Shown: positions 10,804-23,173 of the stretch, piece by piece
Numbering within the stretch: position 1 is the stretch's first letter
Layout of the letters: every line of letters begins with the position of its first letter
NCBI GenBank assembly: GCA_001029295.1
Contig: LDXJ01000036.1
Span: 1 to 48,382 of the forward strand
Length of the DNA: 48,382 nt
Source of the DNA: Peptococcaceae bacterium CEB3
GTDB taxonomy: Bacteria; Bacillota; Desulfitobacteriia; Desulfitobacteriales; Desulfitobacteriaceae
Reading direction: 5' to 3'
Notes under the pieces: model-generated
Database searches by the model: none
Told to the model about the DNA's origin: nothing
What the model saw: the letters and a program-made list of their open reading frames with translations, nothing else
Translations under genes and position numbers: made by a program

Positions 10804-12483
10804 TCAATCCAATTCTTTCGCTTTCCTTTGTTCCAGATACTGAGTCGCATAAAGGCCGCGTAAATCCCGTTTGAGAATCTTGCCGCTCGGCGTTTTTGGC
10901 AACTCAGGAAGGAAGATCACCCCCTTGGGGACTTTGAAGGCTGGCAAGTTTTCACGGCAAAGCTGAATAATCTCTTCGGCGTTGATACTGGTGCCTGATT
11001 TCGGCACGACTAGGGCTGTTACTGCTTCCATCCATTTTTCGTGCGGTAGACCGATGACTGCGACTTCCGAAACACGGTTATCCTGGTAGATAACTTCCTC
11101 CACCTCACGGCTGGGGACATTCTCACCGCCCGTTTTCACTATATCCTTCTTGCGATCCATGACTGTGATATAATCATCTTGATCCAAAACCCCGATATCT
11201 CCGCTGTGGAACCAGCCGTGCGCAAAAATCGCCTCTGTTTTGTCCGGGTCTTTAAAATAGAGCAGCATGGCATGGGGGCCACGGCCGCAGATTTCACCGG
11301 GGATACCAGGCCCGGCAAGTGCCCTGTGCTCGATGTCTTCCAGCTGTGATTCCATGTTCAAACCGGCTCTTCCCGCTGAACCTGGCTTGGTCAGCATGTC
11401 CTCGGGGCTGAGCATCGTGTGGTAAGGGCCCAGTTCAGTTTGGCCATAGTAATTGTAGAATCTTTGGCAGCCAGGCAGCCGCCGGACGACCTCCTTCAGG
11501 ACCTCAACCGGCATGATTGAGGCCCCATAGTATCCCTTAATAAGCGAGCTGAGATCGAAGTTTTGAAACTCAGGATGGCGCATCAGGCCAATCCAAACGG
11601 TGGGTGGGGCAAAAAACATCGTGGCCTGGTATTTAACGATGTTCTCCATGATTTCTTTCACATCTGTGTTATACATTAAGATATTTGTCGCGCCTAGCAT
11701 GAGAGTGGGGGTAAGAAAAACATCCCTTTGGGCGCAGTGGTAAATGGGCAGAGCATTGAGGTTTACATCGTGGCGTGTGTATTCACCGTCGATAATACAG
11801 CTGGTATACTCGGCCAAGAGGGATTGATTGGTAAGAATCACGCCTTTGGGCAGGTTTTCTGTTCCGGATGTGTAAGTCATCTGGACTGGGTCTTCAATGT
11901 GCAACTCTACCTCGGGTTCACCAGCGGGATGTTGCTTGTACCATGTTTCAAAGTCGGAGAAACCCACCGGAGCTTCTCGGCCAATCCCTTGTCGTGACCA
12001 AAACAAGGTTTTGACCGTTGGTATTTCATCCAGAATATCTTTGACCAGGTCATAAAGAGCATCCTCAACAATAAAAACTTTCGCTTCCGAATGATTAAGA
12101 CAGTAGGCAATGTCTTTGCCTCGCAAGAGGTAATTAACCGCTAAGTACACTCCTCCTGCTTTGGCCGTGCCCAGCCAGGTCAGGACATGGTCTATCGTGT
12201 TATGGGCTAGTATGGCTATCCGATCATATTTTTTTAGGCCCAAAGCGATGAGGGCATTGGCCACCCGGTTAGATTCTTCGTCCAACTGACGGTAAGTGAG
12301 AGTAATGCTGCGGTAAATCAAGGCAGGTTTATCCGGATACCGGTAAGCGCTCCGCCGGGGGATATCAGCCACGACCCAACGGTTGACATGATTATAACGC
12401 CGACGCAGAAAACGGACATTTTCCTCATTCAGCAGGGTGTAATGTTCCCGTTCTTTTAGAGTGAGCGGGGGATGCTCAAACAT
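10804..12483 (-). CDS. AMP-forming acyl-CoA synthetase 1
   Basis: A 559-residue adenylating CoA ligase, predicted to activate a carboxylic acid (fatty or aromatic) through an acyl-AMP. The ANL-superfamily motifs are in order: P-loop YTSGTENLPKGVILTN, FYNYYGQTELGPYH (motif A5), GWFHSGDIG (A7), VMDRKKDIVKTGGENV (A8) and TPSGKILKRDLR with the catalytic lysine (A10). The P-loop reads TSGTENLPKG rather than the usual TSGTTGxPKG. AGGAGG lies just upstream of the ATG at 12483. It follows the second synthetase by 51 bp in the same direction, so they are probably one operon under the minus-strand sigma-54 promoter at 14265-14282. Confidence 0.85.
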   Translation of the reverse strand: MFEHPPLTLKEREHYTLLNEENVRFLRRRYNHVNRWVVADIPRRSAYRYPDKPALIYRSITLTYRQLDEESNRVANALIALGLKKYDRIAILAHNTIDHVLTWLGTAKAGGVYLAVNYLLRGKDIAYCLNHSEAKVFIVEDALYDLVKDILDEIPTVKTLFWSRQGIGREAPVGFSDFETWYKQHPAGEPEVELHIEDPVQMTYTSGTENLPKGVILTNQSLLAEYTSCIIDGEYTRHDVNLNALPIYHCAQRDVFLTPTLMLGATNILMYNTDVKEIMENIVKYQATMFFAPPTVWIGLMRHPEFQNFDLSSLIKGYYGASIMPVEVLKEVVRRLPGCQRFYNYYGQTELGPYHTMLSPEDMLTKPGSAGRAGLNMESQLEDIEHRALAGPGIPGEICGRGPHAMLLYFKDPDKTEAIFAHGWFHSGDIGVLDQDDYITVMDRKKDIVKTGGENVPSREVEEVIYQDNRVSEVAVIGLPHEKWMEAVTALVVPKSGTSINAEEIIQLCRENLPAFKVPKGVIFLPELPKTPSGKILKRDLRGLYATQYLEQRKAKELD

Positions 12484-12534: not shown

Positions 12535-14163
12535 TCACGGGTCCTCACTGGCCGCAGTTTCGCTTGCGAACTGTTTCCTTAGGGCCTGTTTGTAGAATTT
12601 CCCCACACTTGTCCTCGGAATAGAATCTAAAAACTCCACCCGATCGGGCAGCCACAGCTTGGGGACTTTTCCTCTCAGGTAATCAAGAATATCTTCTTGA
12701 CTCACGTGACCGACAGATTCTTGCCGCAGGACGACACAGGCCAAAGGCCGCTCCAGCCATTTCGGGTGGGGTATGGCGATGACGGCGGCCTCCAAGACCG
12801 CGGGGTGACCCATGAGGGTATTTTCCAGATCGAGCGAAGAAATCCATTCCCCTCCGCTCTTAATCAGATCCTTGCTCCGGTCGGCAATAGCTACATATCC
12901 TTCCGGGTCTACGGTAACGATATCTCCGGTGTGGAGCCAGCCCCCGGCGAAGGCTGCCCGGCTGCGAACCGGATCTTTGTAATACTCTTTGGCGATCCAA
13001 GGTCCGCGGAGCAAAAGCTCACCCATGGTTTTGCCATCCCAAGGAACCTCCAGGCCGTCTTCTCTGACCACTTTCATTTCCAAGCCCGGAACGAGCAGTC
13101 CTTGTTTGGAGGCTGTATTGTATTTTTCCTCTTCACCCCAATCTGCCATACTGCTCTTGGGCCGGGAGACGAGAGCGACGGGGGTGGTTTCCGTCATGCC
13201 GTAGGCATGAAGGACAGTCAGTCCAAGTTTTTCACGATAATTTCTGATCATAGATTTGGGTGCGGCGGAACCGCCGCAGACCAGCTCGCTCAGACTGGAC
13301 GGGTCGTATTGACCGCTTGCCCAGAGGGGATACGTAGCCATCCAGATGGTGGGTACTCCGGCGGCCATCGTTACTCGATGTTCCTCGATCATTTGGCAAA
13401 TGTCCTCTGCCTGTGGCCGGGCGCCGGGAAAGACCTGGGTGGCCCCCAGCCAAGTGCAGGCAAAGGGGAGTCCCCAAGCGTTGGCGTGAAACATGGGTAC
13501 AAAAGGAAGAACACGGTCCGCTTCCCTGAGACCCAACGAATCCGGGATGGAAGCCGCATAACTGTGAAGGACCAAGCCCCGGTGGGTGTAGACAACCCCT
13601 TTCGGGTTGCCTGTGGTGGCTGTGGTGTAGCACATGGCGGCAGGATCCCATTCGCTTAGGTCGGGGAAAGCCATGTTCTCGCCGGCTGCGGCTAACAGAG
13701 TTTCGTAGGAAAGGGGATTCCTGAGATTGTTTGCCGGTATCTCTTCTGTGTCCGACATGACGATGAAATGTTCTACGGTTGGCACTTGAGCCTGAATGCT
13801 TTCCAGGAGGGGAAGCAAATCCTGGTCGACAAAGAGGGTTTTGTCTTCTGCATGGTTGATGATGTAAGTCAATTGTTCCGGAGCCAGACGCAGATTCAGG
13901 GTGTGGAGGATGGCGCCGCTGAGCGGCACGGCGAAGTAAAGCTCAAGGTGGCGATGGTGGTTCCAAGCCAGGGTCGCTACCCGGTCTCCTTTGCTCAGGC
14001 CCAGATCCTTCAGCACATTGGCCAGGCGCAAGACCCGTCTGTAAAAGTCTTCGTACGTGTAGCGAAAGGTTCCCGAGTAGTCGCGGGAAATAATCTCCTT
14101 CTTGGGGAAGAGTTGAGCGGCCCGCTCCAGGACTGCCCGCAAGGTAAGGTCATAGGACATCAT
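12535..14163 (-). CDS. AMP-forming acyl-CoA synthetase 2
   Basis: A 542-residue acyl-CoA synthetase, closer to the medium-chain / methylmercaptopropionate ligase group. Visible motifs are YTTATTGNPKGVVYTHRG (P-loop), HAYGMTETTPV (A5), GWLHTGDI (A7), IADRSKDLIKSGGEW (A8) and RTSVGKFYKQALR (A10 lysine). The start at 14163 is preferred because GAGGAG precedes it by 8 nt; an in-frame ATG at 14184 lacks a good site. It is the first gene of the minus-strand unit, facing the beta-oxidation operon. Likely substrates are medium-chain or branched acids, inferred from context. Confidence 0.85.
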   Translation of the reverse strand: MMSYDLTLRAVLERAAQLFPKKEIISRDYSGTFRYTYEDFYRRVLRLANVLKDLGLSKGDRVATLAWNHHRHLELYFAVPLSGAILHTLNLRLAPEQLTYIINHAEDKTLFVDQDLLPLLESIQAQVPTVEHFIVMSDTEEIPANNLRNPLSYETLLAAAGENMAFPDLSEWDPAAMCYTTATTGNPKGVVYTHRGLVLHSYAASIPDSLGLREADRVLPFVPMFHANAWGLPFACTWLGATQVFPGARPQAEDICQMIEEHRVTMAAGVPTIWMATYPLWASGQYDPSSLSELVCGGSAAPKSMIRNYREKLGLTVLHAYGMTETTPVALVSRPKSSMADWGEEEKYNTASKQGLLVPGLEMKVVREDGLEVPWDGKTMGELLLRGPWIAKEYYKDPVRSRAAFAGGWLHTGDIVTVDPEGYVAIADRSKDLIKSGGEWISSLDLENTLMGHPAVLEAAVIAIPHPKWLERPLACVVLRQESVGHVSQEDILDYLRGKVPKLWLPDRVEFLDSIPRTSVGKFYKQALRKQFASETAASEDP

Positions 14164-14264
14164 GTTAAATCTCTCCTCGCACATAGTTTAGCAAGCTCCG
14201 CAGAAGATTCCGATTTTCCCCCAGCCTTCTCTCTCAAACATGCTCTCAATAATGGCGAAATATT

Positions 14265-14282
14265 TGCAATACTTATGCCAGG
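14265..14282 (-). promoter_or_regulatory. Sigma-54 promoter, minus strand
   Basis: Read on the minus strand: TGGCAT, 5 nt AAGTA, TTGCAA. The GG of the -24 element and the GC of the -12 element are 12 nt apart, as sigma-54 requires. It lies about 100 bp upstream of acyl-CoA synthetase 2. Confidence 0.65.
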
Positions 14283-14384
14283 TCTGGGATGTCGCCTGAG
14301 GTTAGCCGAGTCGGCCACTTTTCCCGCTTGCGACCGATATGGCGCCGATCTTTTGCCGGGTCAACCTAAGGGGTGAGTGTCCTG

Positions 14385-14406
14385 TGTCCTGTCTTCTGAC
14401 AGGACA
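14385..14406. promoter_or_regulatory. Palindrome, candidate upstream activator site
   Basis: TGTCCTGTC-TTCT-GACAGGACA is a perfect inverted repeat with 9-bp arms. It sits about 105 bp upstream of the minus-strand sigma-54 promoter and about 130 bp upstream of the plus-strand one, the usual distance for an enhancer-binding protein site. An extra half-site-like TGTCCTG precedes it. The likely ligand is the activator encoded at 19023-21299. Confidence 0.55.
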
Positions 14407-14536
14407 GTATTGTCCACTACACACGGTTGGCAAAGGCAAAGGCCAAACCGGCCAAGACCGGAGGAGAAGGATTGACCTTGGCGCACCTTGCGGTTCACCT
14501 TGCGGTTCCCGGATAGTGCCGCCGTTTTCAATAAAT

Positions 14537-14554
14537 TTGGCACGGAAATTGCTT
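14537..14554 (+). promoter_or_regulatory. Sigma-54 promoter, plus strand
   Basis: TTGGCAC-GGAAA-TTGCTT matches the -24/-12 consensus almost perfectly, with correct GG-to-GC spacing. It lies 107 bp before the thiolase start. Its strength makes this one of the clearest regulatory sites in the window. Confidence 0.8.
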
Positions 14555-14660
14555 TTCAATTTTGAAGTGTTTTAGTTTTCAAAGGACCGCTGTGGACTTG
14601 GGAGGGAGTGAGTGGCTGTTTAAGTGCGGATGCAACGGAAAAAGAAAGGGTGGTCAAAAG

Positions 14661-15812
14661 ATGAGGGAAGCGGTGATTGTAGAAGCCGTGAGAACGCCGG
14701 TGGGAAGGCGAAACGGATTTTTCAGTAACTTGCGCTCAGAGGAATTGGCGGCGCACGTGCTGCGGGAGGTCATGAACCGGGTGGGAGTGGATCCGGCACT
14801 GGCAGAGGATGTGGTGATGGGTTGTGTCTCTCAGGTCGGAGAGCAGGCAGCCTGCATCGGGCGGCAGGCCCTGCTCATCGCGGGTTATCCGCTTGAGGTT
14901 CCGGGTGTGACGATTGACCGGCAATGCGGATCGAGCCAGCAAGCCGTCCATTTTGCGGCTCAAGCAGTGTTGGCCGGAGATATGGAGGTGGTGGTGGCCG
15001 CCGGAGTAGAAAACATGACCAGGGTTCCCATGGGGTCGAACTTTGCAGGAACGGAACTTTCTCAGGAACTCACTTCCCGCTATGAGATCATTCCTCAGGG
15101 GCTCTCGGCGGAACGGATTGCTGAGCAATGGGGACTCAGCCGTCAACAGTTGGACGAGTTTTCCCTGGAGAGCCACGCCAAAGCCCTGCGGGCCCAGGAG
15201 GAGGGCCGCTTTGAACGGGAAATTGTGCCGGTTGAGGTGGTCCTGGCGGGCGGAAGCAAAGCTTTGGTCAAGACGGATGAAGGGCCGCGCCGGAACACGA
15301 ATCTGGAGAAGCTGGGGCAGCTAAAGACAGCGTTTAAGGAAGACGGAAAAGTGACCGCCGGCAATTCCAGCCAGATCTCGGACGGCGCGGCAGCGCTCCT
15401 CATCATGTCGCGGGCAAAGGCGGCTGAGTTGGGCTTAAAACCGCGCTTTCGGATTGTGGCCCGCTCGGTGTTGGGCTCGGATCCCACCCTCATGCTCACG
15501 GGGCCCATCCCGGCGACCGCCAAAGTTTTGGCTAAAGCCGGACTCAGCCTCAGAGACATCGATATCTTCGAGGTGAATGAGGCGTTCGCTTCCGTTCCCT
15601 TGGCTTGGCTCGCTGAAACGGGTGCCGACCCGGAGAAGTTGAATCCTAACGGTGGGGCGATTGCCCTCGGGCATCCCCTCGGAGCCAGTGGAGCACGGGT
15701 GATGACCACGCTGCTGTATGAACTGGAGCGCACAGGCGGACGTTACGGCCTGCAAACGATGTGCGAAGGGCACGGCATGGCTAACGCGACAATAGTGGAG
15801 CGTCTGGATTAG
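14661..15812 (+). CDS. Thiolase (acetyl-CoA acyltransferase)
   Basis: Catalyses thiolytic cleavage of 3-ketoacyl-CoA to acetyl-CoA (or propionyl-CoA) and a shortened acyl-CoA, or the reverse condensation. The 383-residue length is normal. Catalytic residues are C89 in DRQCGSSQQA, H338 in GGAIALGHPLGASGAR and C368 in MCEGHGMANA. The last motif has a histidine where most relatives have glycine (CxGGG). The start is the ATG at 14661 beginning MREAVIVEAVRTPVG; a longer open frame upstream has no homology-like content. It is the first gene of the five-gene sigma-54 operon. Confidence 0.9.
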   Translation: MREAVIVEAVRTPVGRRNGFFSNLRSEELAAHVLREVMNRVGVDPALAEDVVMGCVSQVGEQAACIGRQALLIAGYPLEVPGVTIDRQCGSSQQAVHFAAQAVLAGDMEVVVAAGVENMTRVPMGSNFAGTELSQELTSRYEIIPQGLSAERIAEQWGLSRQQLDEFSLESHAKALRAQEEGRFEREIVPVEVVLAGGSKALVKTDEGPRRNTNLEKLGQLKTAFKEDGKVTAGNSSQISDGAAALLIMSRAKAAELGLKPRFRIVARSVLGSDPTLMLTGPIPATAKVLAKAGLSLRDIDIFEVNEAFASVPLAWLAETGADPEKLNPNGGAIALGHPLGASGARVMTTLLYELERTGGRYGLQTMCEGHGMANATIVERLD

Positions 15813-15836: not shown

Positions 15837-16604
15837 ATGGACATGAAAAAAGTGGTCGCTCTGGTTACGGGAGGGGCGTCCGGACTGGGTGAAGCGACGG
15901 TGCGCAGGGTCGTCAACGATGGGGGCAGGGCCGTGATCTTGGATCTTGCCGTTGAGCGCGGGGAAAAACTGGCGGCTGAAGTGGGGGAGAGGGCGCTTTT
16001 TCAGCCCACAGATGTCACGGACGCGGAAAGTGTGCAAAGGGCCCTGGCGCGGGCGACTGAAATTTTCGGCCGGGTGACAGTCCTCGTCAATTGCGCAGGG
16101 ATCGCCATAGCGGAGAAAGTATTGGGTAAACAAGGGCCCCATTCCCTGGAAAGTTTTACCCGGGTTCTCCAAGTCAATCTGATAGGCACTTTTAATGTCA
16201 TTCGCCTAACGGTCGAAAAAATGTCCGACAACGAGCCGGGGGCAGGAGGTGAACGGGGAGTGATCATCAGCACCGCCTCCGTGGCCGCCTTTGAGGGGCA
16301 GATCGGGCAGGCCGCTTACAGTGCTTCCAAGGGAGGGATTGTGGGGATGACTCTTCCGCTGGCGCGCGAATTCGCCCGCCAAGGCATCCGGGTTATGACC
16401 ATCGCACCCGGCCTCTTCGAAACTCCCATGTTTGAGACGCTGCCGGAAGCCGCCCGTAAAGCTCTGGGGGCGATGGTGCCTTTTCCGTCCCGCCTTGGCT
16501 ATCCGGAGGAGTACGCCCTCCTTGTCAAGAGCATCATCGAAAACCCCATGCTGAACGGCAGCACCATCCGTCTGGACGGTGCCATCCGGATGCAGCCGCG
16601 CTAG
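15837..16604 (+). CDS. SDR-family 3-hydroxyacyl-CoA dehydrogenase (HSD10-like)
   Basis: A 255-residue classical short-chain dehydrogenase, predicted to oxidise a 3-hydroxyacyl-CoA with NAD+. The cofactor loop is [10 protein letters not shown] (11-20), and the catalytic triad is S148 in [12 protein letters not shown] with Y161 and K165 in YSASKGG. The overall sequence ([26 protein letters not shown]) matches the type-2 3-hydroxyacyl-CoA dehydrogenase group, known for 2-methyl-3-hydroxybutyryl-CoA. It sits 24 bp after the thiolase with GGAGG. Branched-chain or short-chain beta-oxidation is the likely setting. Confidence 0.88.
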
Positions 16605-16679: not shown

Positions 16680-17813
16680 ATGACTCTTTACGGGGAGGAG
16701 CATGAACTGTTTCGCCAATCCTTTCGTAAATTTGTCAAAAAGGAACTGGTCCCCCAGGTGGAGGAATGGGAGGAAGAGGGGGAGATGCCGCGCTCAGTCT
16801 GGCGGCGCTTGGGCGAGCAGGGCTACCTTTGTTCTTGGTTGGAGGAAAAGTACGGAGGGGGCGGGGCGGATTTTCTCTATTCGGTCATTATCAACGAGGA
16901 ACTGGCCGCGGCGGGGATCGGAATTGCGGTCGGATTGCACAGCGACATCATCGCTCCCTACATCGACACTTATGGCAGCGAAGCGCAGAAGTCCCGCTGG
17001 CTGCCGGGCTGTGCCACCGGGGAAACGGTCTTGGCTATTGCCATGACGGAGCCGGGGGCAGGGTCTGATCTGCAGGGGATCAAAACCACCGCCGTGCGCG
17101 AGGGTGAGGAATATGTCCTCAACGGTTCCAAGACGTTTATCAGCAACGGGTTTTCTGCCGATGTGGTGGTCGTGGTCGCTAGGACAGACCCTGCAGTGCC
17201 TGCCAGCAAAGGACTCAGCCTGATTGTAGTCGAGCGGGGAACTCCCGGTTTCGCGAAAGGGCGGAAATTGAAGAAGCTGGGCTTGCACAGCCAAGATACG
17301 GCCGAGCTGTTTTTTGACAACTGCCGCGTGCCGGTTTCGAACCGTTTGGGGGTCGAGGGGAGCGGGTTTGCCTATCTGATGGAAAAACTCCAGCAGGAGC
17401 GGTTGGTTTCGGCCCTCGTTTCCCAGTCTTTGGCCCGACGAATGCTTACCGATACAATCGACTATGTCAAGAAGCGGGAGGCCTTCGGCCAGCCCATCGG
17501 AAAATTCCAACACAATGCTTTCAAGATTGCTGAAATGGCGACCGAAGTGGAGCTCGGGCAGGTATTTATGGAACACCTCATCGCCGATCACATGGCCGGC
17601 AAAGAAATCGTGAGCGAGGTTTCCATGGCCAAATACTGGATCGGCGAAATGGCCAACCGGGTGGCCTATCAATGCCTGCAACTGCACGGGGGTTACGGCT
17701 ATATGGAGGAATATCCCATTGCCCGTTTCTACAGGGATGTGCGGGCGCACACCGTCTATGCGGGAACTTCGGAAATTATGAAGTTAATTATTGCCCGAAG
17801 ATTAGGGCTCTGA
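16680..17813 (+). CDS. Acyl-CoA dehydrogenase, helix-G glutamate type
   Basis: A 377-residue FAD enzyme forming the 2,3-enoyl-CoA. AMTEPGAGSD (121-130) and KTFISNG are the flavin- and substrate-binding signatures. The usual C-terminal catalytic position reads YAGTSEI, with alanine instead of glutamate. The catalytic base is therefore probably E240 in QQERLV, as in the long-chain and isovaleryl-CoA dehydrogenases. It needs an electron-transfer flavoprotein, which is not in the window. No enoyl-CoA hydratase is present either. GGAGG precedes the ATG. Confidence 0.88.
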   Translation: MTLYGEEHELFRQSFRKFVKKELVPQVEEWEEEGEMPRSVWRRLGEQGYLCSWLEEKYGGGGADFLYSVIINEELAAAGIGIAVGLHSDIIAPYIDTYGSEAQKSRWLPGCATGETVLAIAMTEPGAGSDLQGIKTTAVREGEEYVLNGSKTFISNGFSADVVVVVARTDPAVPASKGLSLIVVERGTPGFAKGRKLKKLGLHSQDTAELFFDNCRVPVSNRLGVEGSGFAYLMEKLQQERLVSALVSQSLARRMLTDTIDYVKKREAFGQPIGKFQHNAFKIAEMATEVELGQVFMEHLIADHMAGKEIVSEVSMAKYWIGEMANRVAYQCLQLHGGYGYMEEYPIARFYRDVRAHTVYAGTSEIMKLIIARRLGL

Positions 17814-17836: not shown

Positions 17837-19012
17837 GTGTACAAGATGCTTAAGGACATGCGCATTCTCGACCTCACCAGGCTTCTGCCCGGTGGGTATG
17901 CCACTCAGATGCTGGCTGATCTGGGGGCGGAAGTGCTCAAGGTGGAGGATCCCTGGCAAGGGGATTATGTGCGCTGGATGAAACCGTACTTGCCTGGTAC
18001 GAAAGATGGGGCCTACTATTGGGCCCTAAATCGCAACAAGAAAAGCGTGATCCTCAATTTAAAGACCGTGGAGGGGAGGGAGAATTTTCTCAAGCTCCTG
18101 CGGGAGTACGACATTGTGGTCGAGGGGTTCCGGCCGGGGGTGATGGAAAAGTTAGGCCTCGGTTATGAGGTGCTGCAAAGGGCCAATCCGCGAACGATTC
18201 TCTGCTCCATCTCCGGTTACGGCCAGGACGGGCCATATCGGCTGCGTTCTGGTCACGATCTGAATTATCTGGCTCTGGCGGGGGTTCTGGGTCTCAACGG
18301 GGAGCGCGGTGGGCCGCCGCTACCCCCTGCGGTTCAAGTAGCCGATATCGGTGGTGGAGGACTCATGGCGGTAATAGGCATTCTTACCGCCCATATTGCC
18401 CGTGCCAGAACGGGCTTGGGTCAGCAGGTCGACGTTTCGATGCTGGATGGAGCGGTTTCCTGGCTGGCTATGATTTATGCGCAGTTGGCAGCCGCCGAAA
18501 GTGAGTTAAAGAGAGGGGAGGGCCCCCTGAGCGGCGGGGATATCTGTTACGCGGTCTACGAAACGACGGACGGACGCTATATGAGCTTGGCCGCTCTGGA
18601 GCCCAAGTTCTGGCAGGCTTTCTGCACGGCGGTGGCAAGGCCGGATCTGGTCGAGAAACAGTTCACCCGCGATCCGGGAGCCAGACGCGAGGTGGAGCAA
18701 ATCTTTCGTGCCAGGACCCAAGCCGAATGGGTTAGTTTTCTGGGCAATCTGGATGTTTGCTGTGAACCGGTTTTGGAGCCGGAAGAAACACCGGAGCACC
18801 CCCAGGTCAAAGCGCGCAAGTTGTTTCTCACCTTGGAACGACCGGGAGGGGGTCGTGTCAAAGTTCCTGGCCGGCCGCTCAAATTTCCGGCTGAGACAGA
18901 GTATCCGGATGCCGTTCCCCCGGGATTTGGCGAACAGACCGAGGAAATATTGGGCAAGCCGCATTTGCGGGAGGAATCTGCCCCGCCCGGGGAGAATAAA
19001 CTGGGCAGATGA
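17837..19012 (+). CDS. Class III (CaiB/BaiF, FRC-type) CoA-transferase
   Basis: A 391-residue CoA-transferase moving CoA between acids, here possibly activating the operon's substrate at the expense of another acyl-CoA. The N-terminal MRILDLTRLLPGGYATQMLADLGAEV region and the catalytic aspartate D141 in SGHDLNYLALAG are clear, followed by GQQVDVSMLDG. The start is GTG 17837, placed by GGGAGG at 17821-17826; an ATG three codons later is the alternative. It ends 10 bp before the activator gene. Confidence 0.88.
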   Translation: MYKMLKDMRILDLTRLLPGGYATQMLADLGAEVLKVEDPWQGDYVRWMKPYLPGTKDGAYYWALNRNKKSVILNLKTVEGRENFLKLLREYDIVVEGFRPGVMEKLGLGYEVLQRANPRTILCSISGYGQDGPYRLRSGHDLNYLALAGVLGLNGERGGPPLPPAVQVADIGGGGLMAVIGILTAHIARARTGLGQQVDVSMLDGAVSWLAMIYAQLAAAESELKRGEGPLSGGDICYAVYETTDGRYMSLAALEPKFWQAFCTAVARPDLVEKQFTRDPGARREVEQIFRARTQAEWVSFLGNLDVCCEPVLEPEETPEHPQVKARKLFLTLERPGGGRVKVPGRPLKFPAETEYPDAVPPGFGEQTEEILGKPHLREESAPPGENKLGR

Positions 19013-19021
19013 GGTGATGCA

Positions 19022-19111
19022 GATGTCCAAGCGTGAGATGATGGCTGGGACTGGTGCGGGACTGACTGGGACCGATATGGGGATTCTGATGTCCATGCGT
19101 GAGATGATGAC
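19022..19111 (+). repeat. In-frame direct repeat at the activator's 5' end
   Basis: A 24-bp sequence (GATGTCCAAGCGTGAGATGA...) at 19022-19045 recurs with few changes at 19088-19111, exactly 66 bp (22 codons) later. The protein thus begins MSKREMM and has MSMREMM at residues 23-29, just before the first CBS domain. The second copy may be the original start. Confidence 0.7.
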
Positions 19112-21299
19112 CCCGAATGTACCGCTTCTGGGTCAAGATGATACTTTAGCAGATGGGGTTGCCTTGTTAAGGCAGACCAAATTGGACGCTTTGCCCGTCA
19201 CCGGAAAAGATGGCCACTTGCTGGGTGTCTTTACCAAGGCCAAACTTATGGACGCTTTTCTCGCGGGAGCCCAACTTTCCGAAAGCCTGAGCAATTATAT
19301 CGAGCGTCGGGTTGTGACGGTTCAGGCGGACACCCCCTATGCGGAAGTGGAACGCAGGGTTAAGCTCAGTCCGGTCGGCACGGGGGTAGTGGTTGATTCA
19401 GACGGGCGAGTTCTCGGAATTTTTACGAAAGTCAATATGATTGCGGCGCTTTTCAAAGAAGCGGAACAGACGGCGGCAAAGTTAAACTCCATCTATGCGG
19501 CACTCCCCCATGGGCTGATGGTGGTCGACGCCGGCGGCCGCGTCGAACGGCTGAATCCGGCTGGTGTCAAGATTCTGGGCCTGGCAGAAGAAAGTTTGAA
19601 AGAATGCCCGTTGGTCGATCTCTGTCCGGGACTAGATCTGAGTACGGTTCTCCAATCGGCCCAACACTTGCTTGGAGTGCAGGCAGAAATGAAAGGGGTC
19701 AAAGTTCTCTGTAACGTGAGTCCGGTGGGGGAGGGCGCGGGGGCGGTGATCGCCTTTCAGGCCGTGACCGATTTGGAACAAGTTGCCTTGGAATTGGAAA
19801 CGACCAAGCGCCTGAACGAGACCTTGGCGACGGTGCTGAATATAGCATATGAAGCCATATTCGTGGTCGATGAACGGGGACGGATCACCTTGGTTAATGA
19901 AGCGGCCTGTCGTTTTTTCGGTAAGGAGGAGGGGGAGCTTCTGCGTCGCCCTGTCGACGTTGTCCTTAAGAATACGCGCTTCTCAAGAACATTGAAAACG
20001 GGAATGGCAGAAACCAATGAGATTCAGGTGATTCACGGGCACCCAGCCATCGTTTCCCGCCTGCCCATCGTGCGGCAGGGCAGGGTCGTCGGGGCGGTTG
20101 GCAAGATCGTCTATCAAAAGATCGAAGAGGTCAAAGAAGTTGCCGAACGTTTAGCGGAATTGGACGGAGAATTATTGTGCGATAAGGATAAGTACGGTCA
20201 ACAGAAGTTTGATAGGGAGAAATATAAGAGGGAGACATATAATAGGGAGAAGTGCGACAAGGATCACTATGATGGGGAGAAGTACGGCAAGGAGAAGGAG
20301 AGCCTCGAACGACAGGCGGCCACTTTCGACCGGATTGTCACGGTAAATTCGGACATGTGTCGTCTCAAGCAGGAGGCCGAGACGGCGGCTCGGGGGAGTT
20401 CCACCATCCTCCTGACGGGGGAAAGCGGAACCGGCAAGGAACTTTTTGCGGCAGCCATTCACCACGCCAGTCCCAAACGCAAGGGCCCCTTCGTCAGGGT
20501 TAATTGCGCCGCCGTGCCGGAGAATCTCCTCGAGTCGGAGTTCTTTGGCTATGTCAATGGGGCCTTCACCGGGGCCCAAAAAGGGGGCAAGCCAGGTAAG
20601 TTCGCGTTGGCCGACGGAGGGACTCTGTTCCTGGACGAGATAGGGGATATGTCTTTCAGCCTGCAGAGCAAACTTCTGCGTGTGATCGAGGACAGAACAT
20701 TTGAACCCCTCGGCAGCAACGGGACGGTTAAAGCAGATGTTCGGATTATCGCCGCCACGAATCAAGACTTGTCGCGAAATGTGGAAAATGGATCCTTTCG
20801 TCGTGACCTCTACTATCGACTCAACGTAATAAACTTCCATCTCCTTCCTTTGCGCCGCCGGCCGGAAGATATCGTGCCCCTTGCTCATCTCTTCCTGGAG
20901 CAGTTGAATCTGACCCTGGGCCGGGAGATTGAGGGAATGTCGCCTGTGGTAGAAAAGCTTCTCAGGGCACACGCCTGGCCGGGAAATGTGCGGGAATTAA
21001 AAAACGTCCTGGAGCGCTCTGTTAACTTGGCGGCCGGAACTAGATTAGAAGCGGGGGACCTACCGCTTTATCTGCGCGAGCCGCGGCGGGAACGGAATGT
21101 GAAAGGGGTTTTATCCTGGAGCGAGGGCTGGAAACCAGAGAGAGTGTTTCCCCGCGAAGGGCGGGAGGACCGCCTAGGCAGGGAATCCCTGCTTAGGGCA
21201 TTGGAACTTGTTCACGGGAACAAGTCCGAAGCCGCCCGGCTTTTAGGAATTTCGCGTTCCTGGCTCTACGAAAAAATGCGTCGTCATAATATGGGCTAA
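19023..21299 (+). CDS. Sigma-54-dependent activator with CBS pair and PAS domains
   Basis: A 758-residue enhancer-binding protein. Order: a CBS pair (about 23-140, with [12 protein letters not shown] and [12 protein letters not shown]), two PAS-like domains (about 150-265 and 265-370), a charged repeat linker (386-431), an AAA+ domain with Walker A GESGTGKE (466-473), GAFTGA (513-518, the sigma-54 contact loop) and LFLDEIGD, and a C-terminal Fis-type helix-turn-helix ([15 protein letters not shown]). CBS pairs usually bind adenosyl ligands, suggesting sensing of AMP/ATP or an acyl-CoA. It is the last gene of the operon it probably controls. Start 19023 follows GAGGTG; the first codons are partly duplicated 66 bp later. 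Confidence 0.9.
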
Positions 21300-21364: not shown

Positions 21365-21440
21365 GGCCCGTTGGTCAAGCGGCCTAAGACACCGCCCTTT
21401 CACGGCGGCTACACGGGTTCGAATCCCGTACGGGTCACCA
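21365..21440 (+). tRNA. tRNA-Glu (TTC)
   Basis: Acceptor GGCCCGT/ACGGGTC, anticodon loop CTTTCAC with anticodon TTC, T-loop GGTTCGAATCC and encoded CCA. It is the first gene of the array. Confidence 0.92.
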
Positions 21441-21636
21441 GCCAACTGATTGGCGCTGAACCAAATGGTTAGCGCTGAACGCCCGAAAGCTCAGCCGAAG
21501 TACGCAGGTTCGCATCCCGCGGGGCTCAGCAGCCGGAGACTGAGACGCCCGAGGTGGGAGCCTTGAACCCGGACAGGCGGGCGGATTTTCCGAAGATCCC
21601 CAAGTAATATATCTGAGGGGCTTGACATCGTGACGT

Positions 21637-21711
<75 letters not shown>

Positions 21712-21855
21712 AAGAAACCAAGGAGAAGTCTGGGAACGGTGGCCCGCAAGGCCCGGTTCTAGGACACAGGAAACACGCGGGATGTTGAAGGTGAAGCACC
21801 GGTAAGTCTGGGAGAAGTTGGGCTTTGGGCTGCGTGCCTCGAACATCGATTACGA

Positions 21856-21930
21856 TGGGGTGTCGCCAAGTGGTAAGGCACCAGACTTTGACTCTGGCAC
21901 GCGTAGGTTCGAATCCTGCCACCCCAGCCA
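21856..21930 (+). tRNA. tRNA-Gln (TTG)
   Basis: Acceptor TGGGGTG/CACCCCA, anticodon loop ACTTTGACT region with TTG, T-loop GGTTCGAATCC, encoded CCA. Confidence 0.92.
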
Positions 21931-21935
21931 GAAGT

Positions 21936-22011
21936 GAGCCATTAGCTCAGTTGGTAGAGCACCTGACTTTTAATCAGGGTGTCCCGCGTTCGAGTCGCGG
22001 ATGGCTCACCA
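21936..22011 (+). tRNA. tRNA-Lys (TTT)
   Basis: Acceptor GAGCCAT/ATGGCTC, anticodon stem CTGAC with loop TTTTAAT (TTT), encoded CCA. It starts 5 bp after tRNA-Gln. Confidence 0.93.
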
Positions 22012-22182
22012 ATTATATCATTACTTGGAGTGTAAACATTGTTTTTGAGTGTGCGTGATTTTGGGTCTAACGTGGTTTTGAGTGTAACGTTATCCCCAAA
22101 CAACTAGAGCCACTTGTACGGCCTGCCAAGTTCCTTCGGGCGACTTGGACATCCTCGCGTTTCAACGAGGGGAGGAAGTCAA

Positions 22183-22257
22183 GCGGGTGTAACTCAGTGG
22201 TAGAGTGTCACCTTGCCAAGGTGAAAGTCGCGAGTCCGAATCTCGTCACCCGCTCCA
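22183..22257 (+). tRNA. tRNA-Gly (GCC)
   Basis: Acceptor GCGGGTG/CACCCGC, anticodon stem CACCT/AGGTG, loop TGCCA with GCC, encoded CCA. It shares its acceptor with the second glycine tRNA at the array's end. Confidence 0.92.
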
Positions 22258-22263
22258 GAAAAT

Positions 22264-22340
22264 GCGCTCGTGGCTCAGCTGGATAGAGCGTCTGACTACG
22301 AATCAGAAGGTCGGGGGTTCGAATCCCTCCGAGCGCACCA
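22264..22340 (+). tRNA. tRNA-Arg (ACG)
   Basis: Acceptor GCGCTCG/CGAGCGC, anticodon loop CTACGAA with ACG (wobble A is expected to be edited to inosine), encoded CCA. Confidence 0.92.
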
Positions 22341-22450
22341 ATCATCACCTTAATCAAGCAATCATTACCCTAATCAAGCAATCACTATTCCAATCAGCAA
22401 GCACTACTCCAGTCAAGGAATCACTACCCTAATCAAGCGATTATTACCCT
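22341..22450 (+). repeat. Degenerate ~20-bp tandem repeat between tRNA genes
   Basis: About five units of the type AATCATTACCCTAATCAAGC, with drifting bases and small length changes, lie directly after tRNA-Arg. No gene or tRNA fold is seen. The unit does not resemble a CRISPR repeat because there are no spacers. Confidence 0.7.
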
Positions 22451-22537
22451 TTCATTCAAAAACGGACCGGTCAAAAAAACTTGGGTGCCGGATACCTTGC
22501 CGGACCCGATGGACACCGAGAATGTGAAAATTGACTT

Positions 22538-22613
22538 GCCGTTGTAGCTCAGTCGGTAGAGCGTATCCTTGGTAAGGATAAGGTCACCGGTTCAATCCCG
22601 GTCAACGGCTCCA
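22538..22613 (+). tRNA. tRNA-Thr (GGT)
   Basis: Acceptor GCCGTTG/CAACGGC, anticodon stem TATCC/GGATA, loop TTGGTAA with GGT, encoded CCA. Confidence 0.92.
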
Positions 22614-22617
22614 AAAC

Positions 22618-22702
22618 GCGGGAGTGGCGGAACTGGCAGACGCGCACGTTTGAGGGGCGTGTGGGTAACACCGTACGGGTTCAAGTCCCGTCTTCCGCAC
22701 CA
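22618..22702 (+). tRNA. tRNA-Leu (GAG)
   Basis: A class II tRNA of 85 nt with a long variable arm. Acceptor GCGGGAG/CTTCCGC (one G-U), anticodon stem CACG/CGTG with loop containing GAG, encoded CCA. Confidence 0.92.
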
Positions 22703-22815
22703 GTTTAAAATCCGAAGTCAGACTCGCAAGCCGATATGAGCTTGGGAGGCTTGACAGAAGAGATAGATTCCTTCGGCTGTCCCGTAAAGCCCGGGTGTCC
22801 GGACGGAAGCATCGT

Positions 22816-22906
22816 GGAGAAGTACTCAAGTGGCTGAAGAGGACGGTTTGCTAAACCGTTAGAGTGGGCAACTGCTGCGAGGGTTCGAATCCCTCCTTCT
22901 CCGCCA
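22816..22906 (+). tRNA. tRNA-Ser (GCT)
   Basis: A class II tRNA of 91 nt with a long variable arm. Acceptor GGAGAAG/CTTCTCC, anticodon loop TTGCTAA with GCT, G discriminator, encoded CCA. Confidence 0.92.
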
Positions 22907-22939
22907 CATAACTCCGGTTTGGGATGATTCAGAAACCAT

Positions 22940-23014
22940 TCCTCGATAGCTCAATGGTGGAGCAACCGGCTGTTAACCGGTAGGTTGTAGGTTCGAGTCC
23001 TACTCGGGGAGCCA
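22940..23014 (+). tRNA. tRNA-Asn (GTT)
   Basis: Acceptor TCCTCGA/TCGGGGA (one T-G), anticodon stem CCGGC/ACCGG region with loop CTGTTAA (GTT), encoded CCA. Confidence 0.92.
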
Positions 23015-23015
23015 T

Positions 23016-23092
23016 GGCAGGGTAGCCAAGCGGTCTAAGGCAAGCGGTTCATACCCGCTCATGCGAGGGTTCAAATCCCCCCCCTGCTACCA
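23016..23092 (+). tRNA. tRNA with CAT anticodon (elongator Met, or Ile2)
   Basis: The anticodon stem AGCGG/CCGCT surrounds loop TTCATAC (CAT). The acceptor GGCAGGG/CCCTGCT ends in a G1-T72 wobble. D-stem GCC/GGC and encoded CCA are clear. It lacks the initiator features, so it is elongator Met or a lysidine-modified Ile tRNA; the sequence alone does not settle which. Confidence 0.85.
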
Positions 23093-23099
23093 TTTACAT

Positions 23100-23173
23100 G
23101 CGGGTGTAGCTCAATGGTAGAGCACTAGCCTTCCAAGCTAGCTACGTGGGTTCGATTCCCATCACCCGCTCCA
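23100..23173 (+). tRNA. tRNA-Gly (TCC)
   Basis: Acceptor GCGGGTG/CACCCGC, anticodon stem CTAGC/GCTAG, loop CTTCCAA with TCC, encoded CCA. Last gene of the array. Confidence 0.92.

Follow-up and report, generated by a model that had tools for sequence, protein, structure and literature searches.

In Clostridiales, a regulon built around a sigma-54 enhancer-binding protein (EBP) whose targets lie nearby is a standard arrangement, according to the sections of Nie et al. (2019; PMC6615313) considered here. In those sections, sites of the class TGT-N10-12-ACA are reported for fifteen EBP groups, most Clostridiales EBP sites lie 100–250 bp from the promoter, and the same inverted repeat is cited for the upstream activating sites of NifA and FhlA, which are other regulators with other targets. 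PrdR, the activator of proline reductase in Clostridioides and Clostridium, has a site of the same TGT/ACA class and other target genes. A second survey (PMC12316311) reports, in the passages concerned, that beta-oxidation COGs (acyl-CoA dehydrogenases, thiolases, and related) are enriched among predicted sigma-54 targets in Clostridia and Bacilli, and counts 67 EBPs in Desulfosporosinus orientis; its statistics are at the COG level, and those passages do not describe the locus presented below.

The locus lies in a window of 48,382 nucleotides (the whole stretch of DNA that was analyzed; contig LDXJ01000036.1 of Peptococcaceae bacterium CEB3). With the Clostridiales regulons, as presented in the sections of Nie et al. 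mentioned, it shares a PAS/CBS sensor, a Fis HTH, targets beside the EBP gene, and a TGT-N10-12-ACA site about 100–250 bp from TGGCAY-N5-TTGC. That paper distinguishes 39 EBP groups; compared by target operons, none of those in its Table 1 has a thiolase–SDR–acyl-CoA dehydrogenase–CoA-transferase operon with divergent acyl-CoA synthetases. Set apart from them by its target operons, the locus probably represents an additional group of orthologs whose type is familiar (enhancer-binding activator, upstream activating site, and sigma-54 promoters). Literature searches found no paper joining Desulfosporosinus, sigma-54, and beta-oxidation, and none joining Desulfosporosinus, acyl-CoA, transcriptional regulator, and fatty acid degradation. 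The genomes of anaerobic Firmicutes carry dozens of such activators, with targets mostly not known; the locus adds to their sigma-54 map a delimited activator group with its predicted site, targets, and promoters, and gives a concrete predicted site for the control of acyl-CoA breakdown. Very probably, the region 14376–14415 is the upstream activating site of the activator encoded at 19017–21299, which would drive both divergent sigma-54 promoters, with feedback on itself. The genes of the two operons are the following.

10804–12483, minus strand: acyl-CoA synthetase (FadD-like), leftward operon gene 2 (Pfam AMP-binding; NCBIfam NF006182, fatty acyl-CoA synthetase, above cut-off)
12535–14184, minus strand: acyl-CoA synthetase (FadD-like), leftward operon gene 1 (NF004837, long-chain-fatty-acid--CoA ligase, above cut-off; AMP-binding)
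14661–15812, plus strand: acetyl-CoA C-acyltransferase (thiolase; TIGR01930 above cut-off)
15837–16604, plus strand: short-chain dehydrogenase (SDR; adh_short), candidate 3-hydroxyacyl-CoA dehydrogenase, a role suggested by the operon
16680–17813, plus strand: acyl-CoA dehydrogenase (closest solved chains: 2pg0, mitochondrial long-chain acyl-CoA dehydrogenase)
17837–19012, plus strand: family III CoA-transferase, probable GTG start (solved relatives: succinate--hydroxymethylglutarate CoA-transferase, methylacyl-CoA racemase)
19017–21299, plus strand: sigma-54 activator, last gene of the rightward operon (CBS-CBS-PAS-AAA+(GAFTGA)-Fis-type HTH; ATG at 19017, stop at 21299)

Both synthetases and the thiolase pass NCBIfam cut-offs as fatty-acid/acyl-CoA enzymes; for the SDR, the acyl-CoA dehydrogenase, the CoA-transferase, and the activator, no cut-off is passed among the matches listed. 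The likely role of both operons is fatty-acid degradation. The name "beta-oxidation genes", used in the first-pass annotation, is fair as a label and incomplete as a description, since none of the six enzymes that these operons encode is an enoyl-CoA hydratase. The true start of the synthetase at 12535–14184 is probably an in-frame ATG at 14163 or 14160; the alignment with its orthologs mostly begins at residue 7 or 8.

The activator has the domains and the position, at the end of the rightward operon, that had been read from the sequence at first pass. It carries the marks of a sigma-54 enhancer-binding protein (PF00158 at 1e-67, Walker A GESGTGKE, GAFTGA) and a C-terminal HTH of Fis type (HTH_8 at 1.7e-9). 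Its top NCBIfam model is PrdR (NF041552), with 426.2 bits, below the equivalog cut-off of 795, and it is not a PrdR equivalog. The activator was searched over 73 genomes of the order and 24 loci (L142–L165) were taken for comparison. Of the 24 aligned activators, 22 have SRSWLYEK as the core of the recognition helix; the remaining two, both from genus g6, whose site has a different look, have SRSWFYEK. SRSW is common also to the helix of two distant relatives (L032 and L033), and it occurs in none of the 40 other activators recovered from the same genome. This genome has 55 Sigma54_activat matches (43 at ≥190 bits), a very large set for a Firmicute-type genome. Only 3 of the 40 other activators have a co-oriented sigma-54 site upstream (strict pattern, within 7 kb), while such a site occurs just downstream for 13/40 and divergently for 6/40; activators lying downstream of a co-oriented sigma-54 site, as here, are a minority in this genome.

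Two features of the sensor part differ from the relatives. The usual nucleotide motif of CBS domains, G-h-x-T-x-x-D, ends in a nucleotide-binding Asp. In the CBS pair of the window (19017–19500), as in the sister genome (G001), the corresponding residue of CBS2 is N (D in 21 of the 23 rows that span it) and that of CBS1 is K. Because the CBS2 Asp is N in both activators, which therefore lack the Asp expected of an AMP/ATP-sensing CBS pair, simple AMP/ATP sensing appears less likely for the window activator. Furthermore, 35 extra residues are present between PAS and AAA+ (20180–20320) and absent in all 23 aligned orthologs; they consist of charged repeats of about five residues, with a 15-bp tandem repeat at 20212–20251 in the DNA. 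Such an insert may change how the signal of the sensor reaches the AAA+ domain.

Between the leftward synthetase gene and the rightward thiolase gene there is a gap of 476 bp (14185–14660) with the following elements.

14280–14266, minus strand: leftward sigma-54 -24/-12 element TGGCATAAGTATTGC (1 mismatch to TGGCAC-N5-TTGC)
14376–14415, no strand: predicted activator site region (half-sites TGTCC at 14378, 14385, and 14411; TGTCT at 14390; GGACA at 14402)
14385–14406, no strand: perfect 22-bp palindrome TGTCCTGTC-TTCT-GACAGGACA
14538–14552, plus strand: rightward sigma-54 -24/-12 element TGGCACGGAAATTGC (0 mismatches to TGGCAC-N5-TTGC)

The palindrome had been proposed as the activator site, and it is indeed perfect and placed between the two promoters. 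By itself, the palindrome is no more than modestly unusual, since 5 of 400 shuffles of the gap contain a perfect inverted repeat whose arms are ≥9 and whose spacer is ≤10. A genome search for it, one of the checks named in the first-pass annotation, gave no second copy with up to three mismatches in the window or in the 5.3-Mb genome. In the sister genome, where the full gene order is kept (protein identity 81–96%), both promoters and CTGTC-N4-GACAGGACA are conserved letter for letter, and the palindrome has one mismatch within its 9-bp arms. The dyad is TGTCT-N7-GGACA in the window and TGTCC-N7-GGACA in the sister, in the same alignment columns; both are TGT-N11-ACA and, like the dyads of genus g4 described below, fall within the TGT-N10-12-ACA class. 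Taken on their own, the outer arms of the palindrome make TGT-N16-ACA, outside that class. Because the palindrome is symmetrical, it contains a second dyad, TGTCC-N7-TGACA, at an offset of 5 bp. Its 22 bp are therefore best read, by their letters, as two overlapping TGT-N11-ACA dyads (14385–14401 and 14390–14406). The conserved unit is a TGTCC/GGACA dyad with a spacer of 7 or 8 nt, and the perfect palindrome is a local elaboration. This corrects the part of the proposal that made the perfect palindrome the activator site: the sister is mismatched and the arrangement in g4 differs.

A wider regulon was sought with CTGTC-N4-GACAGGACA: in each of the two genomes of the genus, this locus alone matches without mismatch; another site in the genome of the window (C62:222236) appears at one mismatch, and at two mismatches the 20 and 19 sites are at control level (27 and 17). 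The looser dyad TGTCC-N4..13-GGACA was tried as a site marker in eight genomes and rejected, being too common and not uniformly above the reversed control (76 vs. 46 in the genome of the window, 24 vs. 43 in G028).

In genus g4, probably Desulfosporosinus, the run of thiolase, SDR, dehydrogenase, CoA-transferase, and activator reappears, some members having been lost; divergent from it is a synthetase gene in some genomes and another acyl-CoA dehydrogenase gene in others. The intergenic site there is TTGTCAACTGTCC-N8-GGACA, located between the two promoters (TGTCC-N8-GGACA, that is, TGT-N12-ACA), often with GTGTCC 19 bp ahead of TGTCC; the alignment comprises 17 distinct sites. The window and the sister differ from it by the 7-nt spacer and by another spacing of the upstream half-site. 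A search of 45 genomes of the family with up to two mismatches gave matches in 18 genomes, and the reversed control a single match overall. Of the 18 g4 genomes with the activator (match of at least 445 bits), 16 have the g4 site with at most one mismatch, compared with 0 of the 11 g4 genomes lacking the activator (one-sided Fisher p = 2.3e-6, with genomes treated as unrelated); in the two misses, G026 and G030, little or no DNA is assembled upstream of the activator. The 2-mismatch matches in G033 and G000 appear to be fortuitous. Two further 2-mismatch matches, of the TTGTCAACTTTCAC type and alike in both genomes, are found on contigs other than that of the operon (G012:C18:160180 and G015:C33:206129).

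The position of the site relative to the genes varies among g4 genomes. G014 and G017 carry an additional copy (L144:15206, L150:16010–16055), accompanied by a sigma-54 element of its own, ahead of a second acyl-CoA dehydrogenase gene, which a synthetase gene now separates from the thiolase promoter. In G035, the site and the thiolase operon are still together, about 24 kb away from the activator. The G034 site is at the end of a contig, ahead of the dehydrogenase gene, and that of G028 remains ahead of the activator, with no thiolase operon found in its vicinity. Since the site is copied in G014 and G017 and kept with the thiolase operon in G035, it travels with the target genes. Of the 14 g4 sites with two promoters, 13 have their center 78–82 bp from the leftward promoter (the exception, L158, has 92 bp) and 10 have it 82–88 bp from the rightward one (50–51 bp in two, 132–142 bp in two). 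For the window, the corresponding distances are 115 bp to the leftward and 142 bp to the rightward promoter (116.5 and 128.5 bp in the sister), near the range reported in the cited sections of PMC6615313.

Activator dimers and a seeded AAA+ hexamer would bind the TGTC[CT]-N7-GGACA half-sites at 14376–14415. The bound activator would loop the DNA and remodel the sigma-54 polymerase at both promoters, with the thiolase, SDR, acyl-CoA dehydrogenase, CoA-transferase, and activator as the predicted rightward output and the two acyl-CoA synthetases as the leftward one. Because the activator gene sits in the rightward operon, activation would feed back positively on its own synthesis. A more elaborate form of this mechanism, which we regard as unlikely, has one enhancer nearly centered between the promoters (in g4, at some 80 and 84 bp) and a single activator complex choosing or alternating between the two promoters, as a self-amplifying on/off switch; in the species of the window, the palindromic two-dyad site, the 35-residue repeat linker, and the lost CBS2 Asp would indicate that input and loading may be rewired. 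The predicted shared enhancer, almost equally distant from its promoters and, in some relatives, duplicated or separated together with genes, provides a natural set for the study of one enhancer with two promoters.

Perfect palindromes are typical of dimeric repressors. The one at 14385–14406 could be the operator of another regulator (for example, a repressor over an overlapping promoter of sigma-70 type) or the site of another activator, the sigma-54 elements being served from elsewhere. A sigma-70-like match (9/12) does overlap the palindrome (14433–14406, minus strand), and the 43 EBP matches of the genome offer other candidates. We hold this improbable nonetheless, since the related g4 site is found only together with this activator, lies between both sigma-54 promoters, and is copied along with the targets. 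One activator site shared by two sigma-54 promoters, with the activator encoded in the rightward operon, as first proposed, is the part of the earlier claim to which the comparison with relatives lends strong, if indirect, support, through the co-occurrence above and the conservation of the promoter pair and of the recognition-helix core.

The two promoters had been described at first pass as near-perfect (rightward) and good (leftward), which their match to the pattern bears out. A pair this good (one mismatch summed) occurs in none of 2000 dinucleotide shuffles of the gap. Over the whole window, the -24/-12 pattern at two mismatches is at chance level (46 found vs. 46.8 expected). Of perfect TGGCAC-N5-TTGCW sites, 34 are listed for the 5.3-Mb genome, the rightward element among them; with up to one mismatch, 119 and 86 sites by strand compare with 84 and 76 in the reversed control, an excess on one strand that is slight on the other. 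A sigma-54 gene is encoded in the genome (Sigma54_DBD at 197 bits, contig C63). Among related operon heads, the divergent pair is found in 14 of 19 (13 of the 18 in the first set, and L248); these heads are not independent, with near-duplicates L152/L154/L156 and L151/L153. Only the rightward element occurs in L150, L159, L160, and L161, and L145, whose gene lies close to the end of its contig, has neither. In g6 and in a second family (L159, L161, and L160), with the rightward promoter only, there is no clear TGTCC-N8-GGACA; in the DNA examined of the distant relatives L032–L036, neither a sigma-54 element nor a TGTC[CT]-N6..9-GGACA dyad was observed.

That sigma-A promoters drive most of the transcription, with the -24/-12 matches as decoys or minor promoters, might be argued from the 13 sigma-70-like sites between 9700 and 22000 (6.2 expected), one of them in the intergenic region. 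The absence of such a sigma-54 pair from the shuffles, and its retention in the 14 heads whether the divergent gene is FadD or an acyl-CoA dehydrogenase, make this very improbable. An RNA hairpin, terminator, or attenuator at the palindrome, which can fold with a 4-nt loop, is scarcely credible, given that no T-run follows it, the terminator scan lists none there, it is upstream of both predicted starts, and in the relatives the arms are 5 bp and the spacer 8 nt, with no hairpin this long.

Some other features of the region were noted. Between thiolase and SDR, the sister has a 208-aa ORF (L142:8490–9116) of no known family, membrane-like by eye, which is not present in the window. Between the palindrome and the rightward promoter of the window, a perfect 12-bp direct repeat, CACCTTGCGGTT, occurs twice (14484–14507), and one copy is missing from the sister. 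An RNA-family search of the window gave tRNAs only; 12 tRNA genes are located directly 3′ of the activator (21365–23170).
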